Assembly (NCBI GenBank): GCA_011390575.1
Contig: JAABSE010000009.1
Coordinates: forward strand, 1 to 64,000
From: Sphingobacteriia bacterium
GTDB taxonomy: Bacteria > Bacteroidota > Bacteroidia > Bacteroidales > UBA7960
Reading direction: 5' to 3'
DNA: 64,000 bases
Within the stretch, counting starts at the first letter, position 1; each line of letters begins with the position of its first letter. The notes under the pieces were generated by a model, which was not told where the DNA came from, made no database searches, and worked only from the letters and a program-made list of their open reading frames with translations. The position numbers and the translations under genes were made by a program. Shown here piece by piece: positions 30,113 to 39,646 of the stretch.

Positions 30113-30181
30113 TCCGAATGGAGAATATCTTCACTGAATCTTCATCTTTAATTGTCTAATTTCGTAAAAAAAAGAATGGCC

Positions 30182-30574
30182 ATGAAAAAGATTACTCTAT
30201 CTGTTCTAATCATACTAATGACAGGATTACTCATCAACCTGACAGCCCAGGAGCAAGAATTGCCTGAAAAGGAGAAAAGAGAAACGAAGATGGAGAAGAA
30301 AGAGCAGGAAACTTCGCCCAAAACACCAGGTCCACCATCCAGAGAAGCCCATCAGGAATCAGAGAAGAACAGGGAAAAAGAACCAGAAAAGAGCCAGGAA
30401 GCCGATTCATCGGAGAACATAAAAAAAGTATCTCCCAACAAGCAGGAAGGAGCAGGAAAAAGATCCTCAGCTCGTCCTGGCCGTGGCGCCAGACCGGAAA
30501 TTATCCGGCCCGAACGCGGTCGCCCCGCCGGAGCAGGAAGACCCAAAGGAGCAGGAAGACCCGGCAGGAATTAA
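30182..30574 (+). CDS. small secreted charged protein with Arg-Gly-Pro-rich tail
   Basis: About 130 residues. A clean signal peptide (MKKITLSVLIILMTGLLINLTAQ) is followed by a Glu/Lys-rich low-complexity stretch. The C-terminal Arg/Gly/Pro/Ala tail includes PERGRPAGAGRPKGAGRPGRN. No fold or family recognised; it is probably disordered in the periplasm or outside. The ATG at 30182 was chosen because an earlier ATG (30176) adds only two residues. It is the first gene of a co-directional group with the barrel protein, response regulator, kinase and a second small basic protein. Confidence 0.65.
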   Translation: MKKITLSVLIILMTGLLINLTAQEQELPEKEKRETKMEKKEQETSPKTPGPPSREAHQESEKNREKEPEKSQEADSSENIKKVSPNKQEGAGKRSSARPGRGARPEIIRPERGRPAGAGRPKGAGRPGRN

Positions 30575-30637
30575 CCCATTTACTGTTTTGTTGCTCATAT
30601 TAATGCACTGTTAAACCCGTTCTAAAAAGTAAATCAA

Positions 30638-31537
30638 ATGATTCGCCCGGTAAAATACTTAATGATAGTGCTTTTCCTGCAGGGTTCCCCTGCTGCGGCA
30701 TTTACCACAATAAATGCTGCTTTTCAGGCGGATACCACTCAAATACAGGTGCCGGAGACAAATCCTGAGCCTGCAACCCCATTTTACAATCATTCCATTT
30801 TTCTGGGCACTGGTTTTGGCAATGATTTGCTTTACACAGGTACAACCCTCACCGACAACAGCCCCTTTCTTTCTGCTGATATCCTTTACAGTTACAAAGG
30901 AAAATTATGGACATCTGCCACTATCTATAACCTGCCCGACTTGGGAGTAAAATTCCCCCTGCTTGATGCATCGCTGGGTTATAATCATGTCTTCAACGAT
31001 TATTTCGATATAGCAGGGTCTGTTTCTTACTATCACAGCTCTGGCAGCGTAAAAGAGGAACTGTATGATAGTTTCTCCTGGTTTCGGCTTAGCGGTGGAT
31101 TTGACTGGTACTGGATATACTCCAAAGTGACTTACGGAAGAATACTAGCTGAAGATTCTGGTTCTTACCTGTATTTCCGCAATTCGAGATACTTCCGAAC
31201 CGCTTCCTGGGGGAAATCCAAAACCTACATTTCTGTGGATCCCAATATCAATCTTCTTTTCGGCAACTCTACACAGATATCTGCCACTTTGCGCCCCGGA
31301 ACAGGAAATCCTGACCGACCAGGGCAGGGAGGCCCTGGCAGAAATCCGGTAAACACAGATAGCTCAAACCAGTTCAATATTCTTCAAACGGAGATTTCTG
31401 TACCTGTATCATTGTACATTCAGAATTTCACTATTGATGCTGAACCTCTGTTATTGTTTCCCCATAACAGCAATGAAGACAACCCTGACATGAAAGGATT
31501 TTACATCTTTCTGAATATTTCATACATGATATTTTAG
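30638..31537 (+). CDS. outer-membrane beta-barrel protein of unknown function
   Basis: 299 residues with a signal peptide (1-28), repeated amphipathic strands with aromatic girdles (YNHSIFLGTGFGN, FDWYWIYSKVTYG) and an aromatic C terminus (NISYMIF) typical of barrels. A loop near residues 225-245 is Gly/Pro/Arg-rich (RPGTGNPDRPGQGGPGRNP), echoing the tails of the small proteins on both sides. No family recognised. Confidence 0.65.
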   Translation: MIRPVKYLMIVLFLQGSPAAAFTTINAAFQADTTQIQVPETNPEPATPFYNHSIFLGTGFGNDLLYTGTTLTDNSPFLSADILYSYKGKLWTSATIYNLPDLGVKFPLLDASLGYNHVFNDYFDIAGSVSYYHSSGSVKEELYDSFSWFRLSGGFDWYWIYSKVTYGRILAEDSGSYLYFRNSRYFRTASWGKSKTYISVDPNINLLFGNSTQISATLRPGTGNPDRPGQGGPGRNPVNTDSSNQFNILQTEISVPVSLYIQNFTIDAEPLLLFPHNSNEDNPDMKGFYIFLNISYMIF

Positions 31538-31621
31538 TCTCATTCCAACTGAATAAAAAAACAGATTTACAGGGGATTACGTGCAAGTGCGGGAACCAAA
31601 TTCTAACAAAGCCCTATCACC

Positions 31622-32296
31622 ATGAACATACTCATAGTTGAAGATGAAGAGCAACTGGCAGGCGAAATGGCTGGCTACCTCCACAAGGAAAACTTTCTAT
31701 GTGAGATTGCTTCCACGGGTAATGAAGCTTCTGAGAAAATTGCGGTAAACCGTTATGATTTTATTTTGCTTGATTTGGGCCTGCCGGATTATGAGGGTCT
31801 TGATTTACTTAAGGAGGCACTTCATTCAGACTATCAGCCGGGTATCATCATTATTACAGCACGAGGGGCTCTAGAGGACAAAATCAAAGGCCTGGACCTG
31901 GGAGCCGATGATTATCTTGCCAAACCCTTTTCACTGGCCGAACTTCTGTCCCGTATTTTTGCAGTGGCCCGAAGAAAATTCAACACACACTCCGATGCGA
32001 TTAATGCCGGAGAGTTTCTGGTGAATATCCAGTCCCGTAAAATTCTTCATAAAACCAAAGAAGTAGAACTTACACGCAAAGAATTTGACCTGTTAACATA
32101 CCTGTTGCTTAACAAAAACAAAACCCTTACCCGGATTCAACTATACGAGCATATCTGGGGCAATATGCTCGATGATCAGTATGACAGCAATTTTATAGAT
32201 GTGCACATGAAAAACCTGCGAAGAAAACTATCAGTCCATGCATCAGCAGACTGGATAAAAACCATCAGAGGAGTAGGATATCAGGCAGTTTTGTAA
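31622..32296 (+). CDS. OmpR/PhoB-type response regulator
   Basis: 224 residues. The receiver has the acid pair E8-D9, phosphoacceptor D51 (FILLDLGLPDYEG) and the Lys of DDYLAKPFS. A winged-helix DNA-binding domain follows (about 128-222, ELTRKEFDLLTYLLLNKNKTLTR and FIDVHMKNLRRKL). Directly followed by its kinase, 24 bases later. The direct repeat at 30073-30112 is the natural candidate binding site. Confidence 0.92.
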   Translation: MNILIVEDEEQLAGEMAGYLHKENFLCEIASTGNEASEKIAVNRYDFILLDLGLPDYEGLDLLKEALHSDYQPGIIIITARGALEDKIKGLDLGADDYLAKPFSLAELLSRIFAVARRKFNTHSDAINAGEFLVNIQSRKILHKTKEVELTRKEFDLLTYLLLNKNKTLTRIQLYEHIWGNMLDDQYDSNFIDVHMKNLRRKLSVHASADWIKTIRGVGYQAVL

Positions 32297-32320
32297 ATTT
32301 GTGTTTAGACTATAAAAGGT

Positions 32321-33637
32321 ATGATGAAACTCCGCTACAAATTGAGTTTGTTTAACGTGCTTTCCAAATTTCTGTTTGGAGCAGTTTTCGTATTGCTCAT
32401 GCCGGCAATATTGGAGAGAATTAACACCCTGCAAACAGATAACGAATTGATAAACAAAAGAGAAAGGGTGATTGATTTGATTGAACGCTGGGGGGTAGCC
32501 TTTTTCATGGAAGATGTGGAGAATGATGCCTACGGGAGTTATAACATTTTGCGCGAAGAGTATATCAGTCTTGAACGTGTTGAACTGGAAGAGCACTGGA
32601 ATTTTATTGAAGTTACCCGTCGCAACATTGAAGATGAAATAATAGATTACAGAGTCCTGAATTACACCTTTCTGATTGATGGGGAGATGTACTTGCTTGA
32701 AATAGGGAAAAGCCTTTCGAGCATTCATAAAACTGAGAAGAATATTACCAGACTCATGTGGCTGTTTTTGCTTGTATTTGTGCTGGCATCCAGCGTTACA
32801 GACATTTCCTTTGCCACTTTTCTTATCAGGCCCCTTGAACGAATCAATCAAAAACTAAAAAAAACATCTACGCCGGCACAATTTGATACTGCCCTGGTGC
32901 TCACCTCCACCACCGAATTTATTCAGCTTGATCAAACCCTCAGTGAGCTGATGCAAAAAATAAACGATCTTTTTCGTAAAGAGAAGGAAACTACCTCCAA
33001 CATTTCGCACGAATTACTAACTCCGATTTCGGTGTTAAGAGGCAAACTGGAAAACCTCATGATACAGAAGGATTTAAGCAATGAATCACTGCAGAAAACG
33101 GAAGAAGCCCTCAAAACCCTCCACCGATTAAAAACCATGGTTAACTCCCTGCTGATGATTGCCAGGGTGGAAAGTCATCAATACCTGAAAGAAGAAACTT
33201 TCTTCGCAGATGAACTGGTGAAAGAAGTTCTGGAAGAATTATCGCCCATGGCTGAGGATAAAAACATCACTTTTCAAAGCCATTTTGATCTGAAGATAAA
33301 ATTTGAACATGCCAACCGGGCACTATTATTCAACATGTTTTATAACATTGTGAACAATGCCATAAAATATACACAAAGAAAAGGAGTCATTTCACTGGCG
33401 ACTTTCCGGCAAAACAACTACAGCGTGCTAAAAATCAGCGACAACGGTCCCGGCATGAATGAAATCCAGCTTCAAAACCTTTTTACCCGTTTTAAAAACA
33501 CGACAAAGCATAAGAATAGCGGCACGGGTATTGGGCTGGCCATTTCCAAAACCATAGCCGATTTTCATGGGATACAAATTAGGGTAAAAAGCACTGAAGG
33601 CAAAGGAACAGAATTTTTTTTCCATATTCCTTCCTGA
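32321..33637 (+). CDS. membrane sensor histidine kinase
   Basis: 438 residues. Two membrane helices (about 10-32 and 145-168) enclose a periplasmic segment of about 110 residues rich in acidic residues, with no recognised sensor domain. HisKA has NISHELLTPIS with His230. The HATPase part has the N box NMFYNIVNNAIKYTQ, DNGPGM and GTGIGLAISKT. It pairs with the preceding response regulator. The acidic periplasmic domain would suit sensing of cationic compounds, but that is inference. Confidence 0.92.
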   Translation: MMKLRYKLSLFNVLSKFLFGAVFVLLMPAILERINTLQTDNELINKRERVIDLIERWGVAFFMEDVENDAYGSYNILREEYISLERVELEEHWNFIEVTRRNIEDEIIDYRVLNYTFLIDGEMYLLEIGKSLSSIHKTEKNITRLMWLFLLVFVLASSVTDISFATFLIRPLERINQKLKKTSTPAQFDTALVLTSTTEFIQLDQTLSELMQKINDLFRKEKETTSNISHELLTPISVLRGKLENLMIQKDLSNESLQKTEEALKTLHRLKTMVNSLLMIARVESHQYLKEETFFADELVKEVLEELSPMAEDKNITFQSHFDLKIKFEHANRALLFNMFYNIVNNAIKYTQRKGVISLATFRQNNYSVLKISDNGPGMNEIQLQNLFTRFKNTTKHKNSGTGIGLAISKTIADFHGIQIRVKSTEGKGTEFFFHIPS

Positions 33638-33701
33638 GTTCATGATTTCTTCATGTTGACTGCCCTACATTTGTTTCAGTATTAACTAAAAAAGTACAAA
33701 C

Positions 33702-34121
33702 ATGAAAACAATTTTTGCAAGTGCAGTAATCGTGTTGATGGTCAGCACTGCTGCAATCAGTCAGAGCACGCAACCTGTGCAGGAGCAGCGTCAGAAACGT
33801 GAGCAAACACAAACTCAGGCAAACCAGCATGGTCAGGATGTAAGCAATGTTGCCAGAGAAGTACCCGGAGGTCAGGGAAAAGGCGAGGTTGTAAGTGGCC
33901 AGGCCCTGACCAAAAGAGAACAAAAAAGACTTGAAAGACAAGAAAGAAAGCAATTGAAACAACAGGAAAAAATCCAGAAAAGAGAGCAAAAAAGATTGCA
34001 GGACGGAACCGGAAACCAACAGCGCAAACAAACTGCCCGCCCACAACGTCCGGAAAGACCCAACCAGCCAAACCGGCCGAACCGCTCCCAAACCCCTGCC
34101 CGTTCCGGCAGACCCAGATAA
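33702..34121 (+). CDS. small secreted basic protein with Arg/Pro-rich tail
   Basis: 139 residues: signal peptide (1-20), a Gln/Lys/Arg/Glu helical region (TKREQKRLERQERK, KQLKQQEKIQKREQKRL) and an Arg-Pro-Asn tail (PQRPERPNQPNRPNRS ending ARSGRPR). It resembles the first protein of the locus in layout (leader, charged helix, Arg-Pro tail) although sequence identity is low complexity. It lies right after the kinase and ends at a strong terminator, so it belongs to this locus. Function unknown. Confidence 0.65.
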   Translation: MKTIFASAVIVLMVSTAAISQSTQPVQEQRQKREQTQTQANQHGQDVSNVAREVPGGQGKGEVVSGQALTKREQKRLERQERKQLKQQEKIQKREQKRLQDGTGNQQRKQTARPQRPERPNQPNRPNRSQTPARSGRPR

Positions 34122-34204: not shown

Positions 34205-34858
34205 TCACTCCAGATGATTTTCCAGTGCATATCGAAAAAGTCCTACCAACGTTTGAGTTTCGGTTTTTCTGTATATGATTTTTCGGTACCGGGAAATGGT
34301 TGAGGGGTTCATTTTTAATATGTTTGCAATTTGTATATCCGTAAGTTCCCTTACAACCAAACGCAAAATTTCTGTCTCCATTTGCGTTAAACCATATTCA
34401 TTCTGGGAAAACCCGTTTTTTCCCGGCTTTACCATCCCCCTTAACAGCCCAGGCAAACTGTAATCTCCATAAAAGGTGTGATTGCTGAGTACCTGGTTAA
34501 TGGCCTTAAAAAACTGGTCGGGACCCGCATTTTTCAGAATAAACCCTTCTGCTTCAGCCCCTGCAATTTCATATAAAATATCTGGTTCATCTTTGGGTGT
34601 AACAGTCAGAACTTTGGTACAGGGGAATTTTTCCTTTACTTTTCGGACCAGATCTATTCCCGATACACCATTGAGCTGTACATTGGTAATTAGCAAATCA
34701 ACAGGTTGCTGTTCCATGATTTGTAATGCTTCATCGGAAGAGGCAGCAACCAAAGGATTGCCCAGCCGTCTTTTCATTCTAAGCATGGCCTTCAATCCTT
34801 CTGCATACATGCGATGGGTATCTGTAATTAAAATCTGAATGTCACTGCCTTTTTCCAT
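34205..34858 (-). CDS. orphan LuxR/NarL-type regulator with degenerate receiver
   Basis: 217 residues with an N-terminal receiver-like domain and a C-terminal LuxR helix-turn-helix (about 150-215, TQMETEILRLVVRELTDIQIANIL and STISRYRKIIYRKT). The usual phosphoacceptor Asp is Asn59 (LLITNVQLNG), and the acidic pair at the start reads ITDTH, with the second acid replaced by Thr. The Lys of FILKNAG is kept. The domain is therefore unlikely to be phosphorylated in the standard way. No partner kinase is adjacent; the gene is divergent from two paralogous barrel genes. Confidence 0.85.
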   Translation of the reverse strand: MEKGSDIQILITDTHRMYAEGLKAMLRMKRRLGNPLVAASSDEALQIMEQQPVDLLITNVQLNGVSGIDLVRKVKEKFPCTKVLTVTPKDEPDILYEIAGAEAEGFILKNAGPDQFFKAINQVLSNHTFYGDYSLPGLLRGMVKPGKNGFSQNEYGLTQMETEILRLVVRELTDIQIANILKMNPSTISRYRKIIYRKTETQTLVGLFRYALENHLE

Positions 34859-35171
34859 TGCTATACCATTTTATCAAAACTACCTGCAACCAGAGTCTTT
34901 TCAAATCAGAACCTCCTCTTAAAACAACATTCTTTGTTGATCAGTAACGCATTTTTTTCTTTAAACAAAACTAAATTAAACATTCAACATAGAAAAACCA
35001 AATTTAATTGTAACTTTTTTCATATTAAACATAACCAAGGAGGTTCTTGCAGTATTTTTATGGAATCAGGAATCTGTTGCAGCATTTTACATCTCAAATG
35101 TTAAAAACCATTTTCTTCCATGGTAATATTAAAATTTTGTTAATTTTGTGACATATTATAAATATCAAACT
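34859..35171. promoter_or_regulatory. divergent promoter region of LuxR-type gene and barrel-protein pair
   Basis: 313 AT-rich bases. Minus-strand -7 boxes TAGTTTTG (34966-34973 on plus) and TAAATTTG (34999-35006) can serve the regulator. A plus-strand TAATTTTG at 35141-35148 can serve the barrel-protein gene, 24 bases before its start. No recognised operator. Confidence 0.4.
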
Positions 35172-36314
35172 ATGAAGAGTATCCTGTATTCAACAATAGT
35201 GGTTTTGATTTCGATTTCTGATGGTCTGTCCCAGTTTCAACCTCGTATGGGTTCTATAAACGGAACATTAGAACTTGGAGATACACTAGTTTTTTCTGCT
35301 GAGATAAAAAAGCCCGGCACATGGCCCGCTGAAGTCAAAGCCCGGCAGGCGGGGAAAGATCTTGTACTATACAAGGCAGGAGAAGCCACTGGGGTTACCA
35401 TAGGCAATGACACATACGATGCACTGAGAGTGGAAATGGACGATGGCAGCCATGTGTATTATTTCGTTGAAGAACTCTCCCATGGGAAGGCCAGTCTTTA
35501 TCACAGCAAACGGGGAAAATACAGGTTTTATGTAAAGACGGACCAACCTGAAGGTATAAAGAGGGAAAATTACCGGCAATTAATCAGCGATCTTGCCGGA
35601 CCATTTGCAAACTCCTATTGTAACCATCAGAAAACGGTATTCACCAAATCTTCCCTGGCTTATTTTTTTGAGCGGTACAATGAAGATGCACTTAATGCTC
35701 ATTTTCCAATGCCTTTTGTTACTGCGGGCATTCAATACAATTTTCTGAGTTTCTTACTACCCGAAAGTTCCTATCAAACCCTGAAAATCAACAGCAGAAC
35801 CCTCGAGTCATCCTTTTATTCGCCTGTTGTATCAGCACACTTTCCTTTTTATACCAACCGTTTCCTGGGAGCAGACATAAGGCTTGCCAACCTCTCTGGA
35901 AATTCAATGGCAACATTTGGCGAGATAGAAACTGACAATTACATTCAGGATGTGTTGATTGATTTCTCCATGCTACAGCTTGATGCCGCATTGCGTTATA
36001 CCTATTCATGGAAAAAAGTTGAACCTTATATAGCCGTAGGACTTAGCGGCATATATTCATTGGATTTTTCTGACAAGGTTGCCTTTTTTCAGGTGCAGGA
36101 CAATATTTTTACTACCACATATTTCGAAAATTATCAAAAACGACCCGAATGGTTTGCAGGAATAAACCTGAACCAGGGAGTAAAATACTATTTCCTGCCC
36201 CGTAATTTTATCGCCGCTGAATGGGGTTATGGCCGTTACATAGAACTAACCGGTTCAGACTATCAAATAAGTAATTTATTCTTTAATGTTTCAATTAATT
36301 TCTGGCCATGGTAA
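35172..36314 (+). CDS. outer-membrane barrel protein with N-terminal soluble domain (paralogue A)
   Basis: 380 residues from ATG at 35172 (MKSILYSTIVVL) with a signal peptide. An N-terminal soluble part of about 130 residues (ending in a YRQLISDLAGPF helix) is followed by a barrel with alternating amphipathic strands and a C-terminal FNVSINFWPW. The next gene encodes a protein with the same two-part layout and a matching ELLELTNRYLNEMLINFG segment, so they are paralogues. Family not recognised. Confidence 0.65.
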   Translation: MKSILYSTIVVLISISDGLSQFQPRMGSINGTLELGDTLVFSAEIKKPGTWPAEVKARQAGKDLVLYKAGEATGVTIGNDTYDALRVEMDDGSHVYYFVEELSHGKASLYHSKRGKYRFYVKTDQPEGIKRENYRQLISDLAGPFANSYCNHQKTVFTKSSLAYFFERYNEDALNAHFPMPFVTAGIQYNFLSFLLPESSYQTLKINSRTLESSFYSPVVSAHFPFYTNRFLGADIRLANLSGNSMATFGEIETDNYIQDVLIDFSMLQLDAALRYTYSWKKVEPYIAVGLSGIYSLDFSDKVAFFQVQDNIFTTTYFENYQKRPEWFAGINLNQGVKYYFLPRNFIAAEWGYGRYIELTGSDYQISNLFFNVSINFWPW

Positions 36315-36370
36315 GATTTAACTTGACTACCTTCAAGGGCAAACATACATCGGGTTGTATTAGTTTCAGT

Positions 36371-37492
36371 ATGTTTCAAATCCATTTCATTCAAACCCTA
36401 ACCTTGTTATGCCTGTTAATATTTCTTTCGGCAACTTCGCAAGCACAAAGACAAAGGCTCGGCAAGATAAAAAAAAATGATGGGGTCTATTTACGTGGCA
36501 AAATCCTTTTTGACCCTTCCAAACCGGATACTGTTTCTTTTTTACAACTCAACTACCTGATAACCTCATTTGGAGCCGATGAGGTGGAATACTTTCAACT
36601 TGAAGGAAAAAATCCCTATGTATCGCGTACTATCATTCATGATTACAAAAGGAAGGCGGTATTACTGGAAAAGGTAATTAGCGGGCCAGTTACCTATTTG
36701 TACCTGCAAGATTCCCCCGACCGGTTTTTTGTGGAGCATGAGGAATTGCTGGAGCTTACAAACAGGTATTTAAATGAAATGCTTATAAATTTTGGCCCTG
36801 ATTGCTCCAGATGGCAGCGGCAGCTGGACAATTCACCCCTGCACCATAAGAAAGTCAGATTTATAGTGAATGAAATCAACAATGGTAAGTGTCGCAACAT
36901 CCCCTATGCTACCATTGGTATTTTTGGATCCTGGTTTTTATCGCAACATACTATAAGCAAAGACGCTTTTGGATATAATATTCCTGATGAGCTGAACAAT
37001 AATCTGAACAATTATTCTCTTGGCCTTTATTTGGATATCCCTGTTTGGAATATTCCAGGTTTTAACCTCCGATATCAGGCAGGATTTTATCAGCACCTTT
37101 TTTCTCATACTTTTCGTATTGACGACGCAAACTATAGCACCCTGAAAATTGACCGTGCTGATTTGATGTTCGAAATAATGCCTGTATTTCAGCTTAATTC
37201 AGAAATCATCAGACCCTATTTTTTTGCCGGACCGGCTCTTACTCTCAACCTTAACAATGGTAGCGAAATAAGAAGATATACAGCCGTACTAAACGTTATA
37301 AGAGAAAGATTAAATCCTTTAGATGCAAACATTTTTTCTCCGGGTATCTCAGCGGGTGCGGGCATTAAATACCACTATAAACCTGAAGCATATTTGGCAT
37401 TGGAATTCAAAACCACGCATGTGGCTTTTGGGAATGGCCATAAAACCAATCTCTGGCAGGCAGGAGTTTCGGCCAATATTATCAACTTTTAA
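36371..37492 (+). CDS. outer-membrane barrel protein with N-terminal soluble domain (paralogue B)
   Basis: 373 residues from ATG at 36371 (MFQIHFIQTL, giving a signal peptide ending near SQAQ); the frame is open from 36308 and would then overlap paralogue A by 7 bases. The soluble domain has EVEYFQLEGKNPYVSR and VTYLYLQDSPDRFFVEHEE; the barrel ends VSANIINF. Same design as paralogue A, probably a tandem duplication. It may be cotranscribed with A (57 bases from stop to this start). Confidence 0.65.
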   Translation: MFQIHFIQTLTLLCLLIFLSATSQAQRQRLGKIKKNDGVYLRGKILFDPSKPDTVSFLQLNYLITSFGADEVEYFQLEGKNPYVSRTIIHDYKRKAVLLEKVISGPVTYLYLQDSPDRFFVEHEELLELTNRYLNEMLINFGPDCSRWQRQLDNSPLHHKKVRFIVNEINNGKCRNIPYATIGIFGSWFLSQHTISKDAFGYNIPDELNNNLNNYSLGLYLDIPVWNIPGFNLRYQAGFYQHLFSHTFRIDDANYSTLKIDRADLMFEIMPVFQLNSEIIRPYFFAGPALTLNLNNGSEIRRYTAVLNVIRERLNPLDANIFSPGISAGAGIKYHYKPEAYLALEFKTTHVAFGNGHKTNLWQAGVSANIINF

Positions 37493-39481: not shown

Positions 39482-39553
39482 TTTATACATAATTCAATCT
39501 TTCAAATTTGATTATTAACTGTTAGTACAAGACAAATTCTATTGTCAAATGAT

Positions 39554-39597
39554 AAAACAGCTGTATTCATCCTATGATGCGATATTGCTGTTTTTTT
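39554..39597 (+). terminator. terminator after typA
   Basis: Stem AAAACAGC/GCTGTTTT (39554-39561, 39587-39594) with an internal CATCCTATGATG structured loop, followed by TTTTTTTA. Confidence 0.6.
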
Positions 39598-39646
39598 ATA
39601 TAAACAGAGCCTATAGGTAATGCCATTTATCCTACCTTTACAGGCT

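Follow-up and report, generated by a model that had tools for sequence, protein, structure and literature searches.

A NarL/FixJ-type regulator with asparagine at the phosphoacceptor site, encoded divergently from two outer-membrane barrel genes

Introduction

What can a response regulator do once its receiver has lost the aspartate that takes the phosphoryl group, and which genes would it act on? The question is raised by a gene, here called REG, in the window (the whole stretch of 64,000 nucleotides that was analysed). A first-pass annotation of this DNA had described its product as a LuxR-type regulator with Asn in place of the acceptor Asp. The source genome (G000), whose gene content points to the Bacteroidota, is assembled at 4.1 Mb in 198 contigs, with a completeness of 90%.

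Receivers of this kind form an established class. A pseudo-receiver (PsR) is a recognisable receiver without one or more of the five active-site residues, and an aspartate-less receiver (ALR) is one without the acceptor Asp (PMC4395418, PMC12632262; these papers, and PMC4125116 below, are cited from excerpts). ALRs make up about 4% of receivers, and pseudo-receivers about 6% of the bacterial ones (PMC12632262). Among the residues that replace the acceptor, Asn ranks second in frequency (16% of ALRs); ALRs usually retain the first acid and the Lys and usually lack the second acid (PMC4395418). The residue at T+1 is usually small in receivers that are phosphorylated. The routes proposed for pseudo-receivers are constitutive activity set by amount, partners or ligands, and their on/off switching is described as unsolved (PMC12632262).

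Gene and domain architecture

The features of REG are:

34205-34858, minus strand: REG, NarL/LuxR-type regulator with a pseudo-receiver, 217 aa (intact ORF, Pfam, NarL alignment, orthologs)
34499-34834, minus strand: receiver-like domain, residues 9-120, PF00072 (Pfam; model with alternating strand/helix order)
34226-34390, minus strand: LuxR/GerE helix-turn-helix (HTH) domain, residues 157-211, PF00196 (Pfam)
34682-34684, minus strand: Asn59 codon AAT, acceptor position (codon read, common to orthologs)

REG belongs to the NarL/FixJ (LuxR-type) family, both the N-terminal PF00072 domain (64.7 bits) and the C-terminal PF00196 GerE domain (30.6 bits) being present with scores above the curated cut-offs. 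Its top solved relative by sequence (phmmer) is NarL. The predicted model (mean pLDDT 85, pTM 0.62) consists of a receiver followed by the HTH, with pLDDT below 50 at linker residues 140-154, and its top structural matches are full-length NarL-family regulators, spr1814 (4zmr) being first, together with LiaR and RcsB.

The acceptor site

In the phmmer alignment LILLDLNMPG of NarL pairs with LLITNVQLNG of REG, which aligns Asn59 with the acceptor Asp. Its codon, AAT, is shared by the window and the two close orthologs, those of genomes G006 and G003. We rejected a sequencing or assembly error, because the same residue stands in these two further assemblies at 73-77% protein identity.

The surrounding pocket was examined in a 40-row alignment, the rows of which were picked by hand from the loci collected at that stage. 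It includes the receiver-only ortholog of genome G007 (L044) and leaves aside the other receiver-only or non-LuxR sequences (L007-L009, L011, L012, L041), the hemerythrin-linked L010, the partial L082 and duplicates. The four members of the REG clade, in the order window, G006, G003 and G007, have N, N, N and T at the acceptor and T, T, A and N at the second acid, so that two of the five catalytic residues are missing from every one of them; the first acid is D in all four. Among the 36 LuxR-type rows outside the clade the acceptor is D in 36, and the second acid is D in 35 with one gap. The first-pass annotation had also reported an N-terminal acid pair reduced to one and a retained Lys, and both readings hold: Asp13 is kept with Thr14 in place of the second acid, and Lys109 is invariant in 40 of 40 rows (36 of 36 outside the clade). 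To that description can be added that Thr87 is kept (T, T, T and L across the clade), that T+1 is P, S, P and P, and that the D+4 position of REG is Asn, not Pro; K-3 is F, V, V and Q.

An alternative alignment that would restore an acceptor Asp was sought and none was found. The sole nearby Asp, D54, falls in a column of its own that is nearly invariant in the canonical relatives, so that no shift of the alignment brings it to the acceptor.

With N59 and T14, REG lacks the residue set of a canonical phosphorylated response regulator. Since these changes remove both the acceptor Asp and the second metal-binding acid, the protein would not be phosphorylated by a histidine kinase in the ordinary manner, and Pro or Ser at T+1 instead of the usual small residue was counted in the same direction. 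It is highly likely that the receiver is non-phosphorylatable. As far as its sequence can tell, REG falls within the published definition of an aspartate-less receiver or pseudo-receiver, and it fits that class on every feature open to such a comparison (first acid and Lys kept, second acid lost).

Orthologs and selection

Full-length REG is found in three of the 12 members of the genus (the window's genome, G006 and G003) and a receiver-only ortholog in a fourth (G007). The G006 and G003 proteins are 77% and 73% identical to REG, and 145 of the 217 residues are invariant across the three. For the three full-length pairs dN/dS (NG86) is about 0.13, 0.12 and 0.15 (0.136/1.044, 0.162/1.333 and 0.106/0.701), values of dS near or above 1 being saturated; the HTH taken alone is under purifying selection in all three pairs by the same method. 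The longest invariant run, 20 residues, is that around Asn59 (residues 51-70; shuffle p 0.016 for the whole protein and 0.006 for the receiver). This block, along with the purifying selection, disfavours decay, and in these three genomes REG is to all appearances a functional protein in which the Asn has become settled.

The ortholog in G007 (L044:10125-10529, plus strand) is a stand-alone pseudo-receiver of 134 aa, with Thr at the acceptor and without an HTH. Its best match in the window's genome is REG (2.1e-22; runner-up 2.4e-9), and it is divergent from homologs of typA, a glycosyltransferase and miaA in the same order as at the REG locus. A gene that by eye is RecA-like lies next to it, and there are no barrels at this locus. 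In G007 the receiver part may serve some purpose other than DNA binding; alternatively, it may be undergoing decay.

Origin among kinase-linked regulators

In an order-level draw of 393 genomes the only ortholog-level match to REG came from the window's own genome; G003 and G006 evidently lie outside the draw. Relatives at E < 1e-36 came from 14 other genomes of it; the 13 newly listed keep the Asp, and so does the fourteenth, L016. A search of genome contigs with REG alone gave one partial match (36%), a far outlier in the tree.

In the midpoint-rooted tree the REG clade (support 100/99) has a long stem (1.18) and stands among canonical regulators. A smaller first tree grouped it with L015/L017/L002 (SH-aLRT 89), and a larger one, to which 13 sequences were added and from which L041 and duplicates were left out, placed it beside L127 (98/90). 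We are therefore unsure of the exact canonical sister, which changes with the sampling and involves long branches. Since both trees set the clade among canonical regulators, loss of the Asp is most simply taken as derived.

The nearest canonical sequences (L127-L131) are 35-39% identical to REG by BLASTP and all keep the Asp. Four of the five corresponding loci read (L162, L163, L164 and L166) have a TPR-HisKA_3-HATPase kinase gene immediately upstream; no such kinase was present on the contig of the fifth (L165). Each of L162-L164 has, just downstream, a small LuxR-HTH protein together with a lipoprotein predicted by eye, and in L162 there is a barrel gene as well. The small proteins have no receiver (L162:7305-7577, L163:8659-8994 and L164:8829-9191, the last by BLASTP only). 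These TPR-HisKA_3 kinase/LuxR-type pairs of the same order thus resemble the REG locus in being its nearest canonical sequences, with a predicted lipoprotein nearby in three of five loci, and differ in that all keep the Asp and most are kinase-linked. No cognate histidine kinase adjoins REG: the kinase closest to it (32321-33637) comes after an OmpR-type regulator on the opposite strand, and this two-component pair (31622-33637) has no counterpart beside REG in G006. As the nearest canonical loci are mostly kinase-linked and REG is not, it looks like the orphaned descendant of a kinase-linked regulator. The ancestral target, we infer, would have been neighbouring envelope genes.

The divergent barrel genes

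On the far side of the promoter region are two genes:

35172-36314, plus strand: B1, secreted, N-terminal domain plus 8-stranded outer-membrane barrel (model, orthologs)
36308-37492, plus strand: B2, remote B1 paralog, OMP_b-brl just below cut-off (Pfam, hhalign)

The ATG at 35172 was preferred for B1 over the listed GTG at 35148 because the orthologs start there; the real start of B2 is perhaps an internal ATG near 36371. The B1 model (pLDDT 81) has weak structural matches to the small barrels Ail, OmpA, NspA and OmpX. B2 scored 26.5 bits against OMP_b-brl, the cut-off being 28.7. The two had been called paralogs in the first-pass annotation. They are so remotely, alignment against alignment (hhalign probability 99.8), and one gene of genome G014 was matched by both, but direct BLASTP of B1 against B2 gave nothing significant.

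The divergent placement of REG also stands up to comparison, the order REG-B1-B2 being kept in three of three genomes with full-length REG. Close orthologs of B1 and B2 occur in exactly these three among the 12 genus members. As the three are closely related, their common gene order should be weighed as roughly a single event. No REG-like gene was seen beside distant barrel homologs in the stretches read from G000, G003, G005, G006, G010, G014, G015, G018 and G039, some of these stretches being truncated where a contig stops.

Other differences were noted around the locus. G006 and G003 have a lipoprotein-like gene of 584-592 aa between B1 and B2, and that of G006 encodes TIG and Kelch domains. 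The gene is missing from the window (36308-36371), where the start codon that overlaps the end of B1 is still present; this leftover codon may add a spurious N-terminal extension to B2. The window also encodes two small proteins, a barrel-like protein and the OmpR-type regulator/kinase pair between the PBP4-like gene and REG (30152-34121). These genes are without counterpart there in G006; in G003 the kinase and one of the small proteins are retained. Lastly, G006 and G003 have a gene of 485-486 aa between typA and the glycosyltransferase gene that the window lacks (39482-39619).

The shared intergenic DNA

The region between REG and B1 contains:

34859-35171, unstranded: shared REG-B1 intergenic region, 313 bp, 27% GC (conserved in three genomes)
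34925-34939, unstranded: inverted repeat CAACA-N5-TGTTG, candidate operator or leader element of REG (in a conserved block; 5-bp arms, weak alone)
35141-35148, plus strand: TAnnTTTG-like box, 31 bases before the B1 ATG (same distance in G006; G003 box at 40 bases)

In the three genomes 211 of 318 intergenic columns are identical; of the 63 fourfold-degenerate sites of REG, 20 are. The pairwise identity with G006 comes to 0.73, while three other intergenic regions gave 0.61, 0.53 and 0.45, and shuffled sequence 0.34. The region upstream of typA reached 0.75, and the idea that the REG-B1 DNA is uniquely conserved was given up on that account. These figures support a constrained regulatory region between the two genes. 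TAnnTTTG is the consensus of the Bacteroidota -7 box, and the box at 35141-35148 resembles it.

The repeat, which is the one conserved inverted repeat of the region, is enclosed in a conserved block, TTAAAACAACAT-N-CTTTGTTGATCA, and lies 67-81 bases before the REG ATG and about 232 from that of B1. When six genomes were searched with up to 3 mismatches, zero-mismatch matches to the block were confined to this locus in G000, G003 and G006; the other matches, five scattered in G005, G006, G007 and G010, all had 3 mismatches. We rejected the palindrome as a regulon-wide operator, there being no convincing second site in the six. The repeat itself is not statistically special, for at one mismatch or fewer the window holds 1 copy of the pattern where 3.15 are expected. 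Its position close to REG fits autoregulation better than control of the barrels. Autoregulation would thus be a little better supported than barrel control, and regulation of the barrel operon by REG seems plausible.

Mode of action and alternatives

REG is very probably a working DNA-binding regulator. The reading that we favour is that of an orphan, aspartate-less NarL/FixJ regulator which acts independently of phosphorylation on its own promoter and probably on the divergent barrel operon. Its ancestor would have been a kinase-linked response regulator. Having become non-phosphorylatable in the usual way, unphosphorylated REG would most likely dimerise and bind DNA, its cellular amount, and not a kinase, setting the activity. 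The most likely targets would be the REG promoter and the outer-membrane barrel operon, with the TIG/Kelch lipoprotein added in two relatives. Loss of phosphorylation, constitutive DNA binding, autoregulation and control of the barrel operon are what we infer from the features above, and that REG controls its own and/or the adjacent promoters we consider probable on balance.

It is possible, if somewhat unlikely, that REG is a true pseudo-receiver regulator of other genes and that its adjacency to the barrels is incidental. The G007 ortholog sits at the same typA locus without barrels, barrel operons occur elsewhere without REG, and the conserved repeat is near REG and not near B1. Against this, the divergent order and the intergenic sequence are kept in all three genomes, and a conserved block without a good second copy in six genomes argues against a large regulon working through it.

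We think it unlikely that REG depends on a partner, forming heterodimers with another LuxR-type regulator and tuning that partner's targets in the manner of WhiI and BldM. Its genome holds several canonical LuxR-type regulators, the retained Lys and Thr imply that the fold and surfaces of the receiver are probably intact, and even the receiver-only G007 protein could still pair with other receivers. A linked partner gene is absent, however, the neighbouring pair being OmpR-type and not conserved beside REG in G006, and REG's own HTH is under purifying selection.

Decay of REG toward loss, with the missing Asp a symptom devoid of function, is quite improbable. The restriction of the gene to four of 12 genus members, one of them without HTH, the long stem of the clade and two Arg-to-Trp changes within the G003 HTH would suit it, but not the low dN/dS, the invariant acceptor loop, the conserved upstream DNA or the reading frames, which are intact in all four members of the clade.

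A Val following Asn slows deamidation, and Val follows Asn59. It is very improbable that deamidation in the cell turns Asn59 into Asp, so that REG would still be a phosphorylated regulator: Asn-to-Asp reversion at the acceptor has been reported for a receiver (PMC4395418) and Lys109 and Thr87 are kept, but the second metal-binding acid is also gone and T+1 is Pro or Ser throughout the clade, no cognate kinase is adjacent, and the one-base change from Asp to Asn codon has not been undone in three genomes.

A second Asn-bearing LuxR-type protein

The same genome encodes, outside the window on contig C154, another LuxR-type protein with Asn at the acceptor (L047:9588-10175, plus strand), the receiver of which is barely recognisable (17.7 bits). 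The protein is present in 12 of 12 genus members, the Asn is kept in 21 of 21 aligned homologs, and a gene with a hemerythrin-HHE domain adjoins it in 21 of 21 loci. The two may form a conserved sensor-regulator pair for oxygen, NO or redox state; no link to a published hemerythrin-annotated protein of P. gingivalis was found in the excerpt available.

Comparison with known pseudo-receivers

The residue pattern of REG is exactly that of the ALRs and pseudo-receivers in the excerpts of PMC4395418 and PMC12632262, with no difference in kind. What is added is a clade, in a Bacteroidota-like genome and beside a barrel operon. RitR of Streptococcus pneumoniae likewise combines an acceptor Asn with DNA binding, although its DNA-binding domain, unlike that of REG, is of the OmpR/PhoB type (PMC4395418), and it is switched by a disulfide of a linker Cys (PMC12632262), whereas the single Cys of REG, C80, is in the receiver. 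A RitR-like redox switch was accordingly rejected for REG, which has no linker Cys and in which C80 is Phe in G003. WhiI and BldM of Streptomyces are both of the NarL/LuxR type. They are orphans, WhiI with a degenerate pocket and BldM independent of phosphorylation; WhiI lacks the Lys that REG retains and is reported to work as a heterodimer with BldM (PMC4125116). A search of the literature on aspartate-less receivers, atypical NarL regulators and LuxR pseudo-receivers of Bacteroidetes, with coverage that takes in few subscription papers, found nothing on the REG clade.

Significance

In most respects the REG clade is a further example of a common and already known class of proteins. What it offers beyond that is a short series: a kinase-linked form with Asp, a form with Asn and an HTH, and a form with Thr and no HTH. 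We think it unlikely that the series records a kinase-linked regulator which became independent of phosphorylation and then, in G007, shed its HTH to leave a 134-aa pseudo-receiver functioning by protein binding. The last two forms lie at one syntenic locus, and a single intergenic region is available there for tests of the target.
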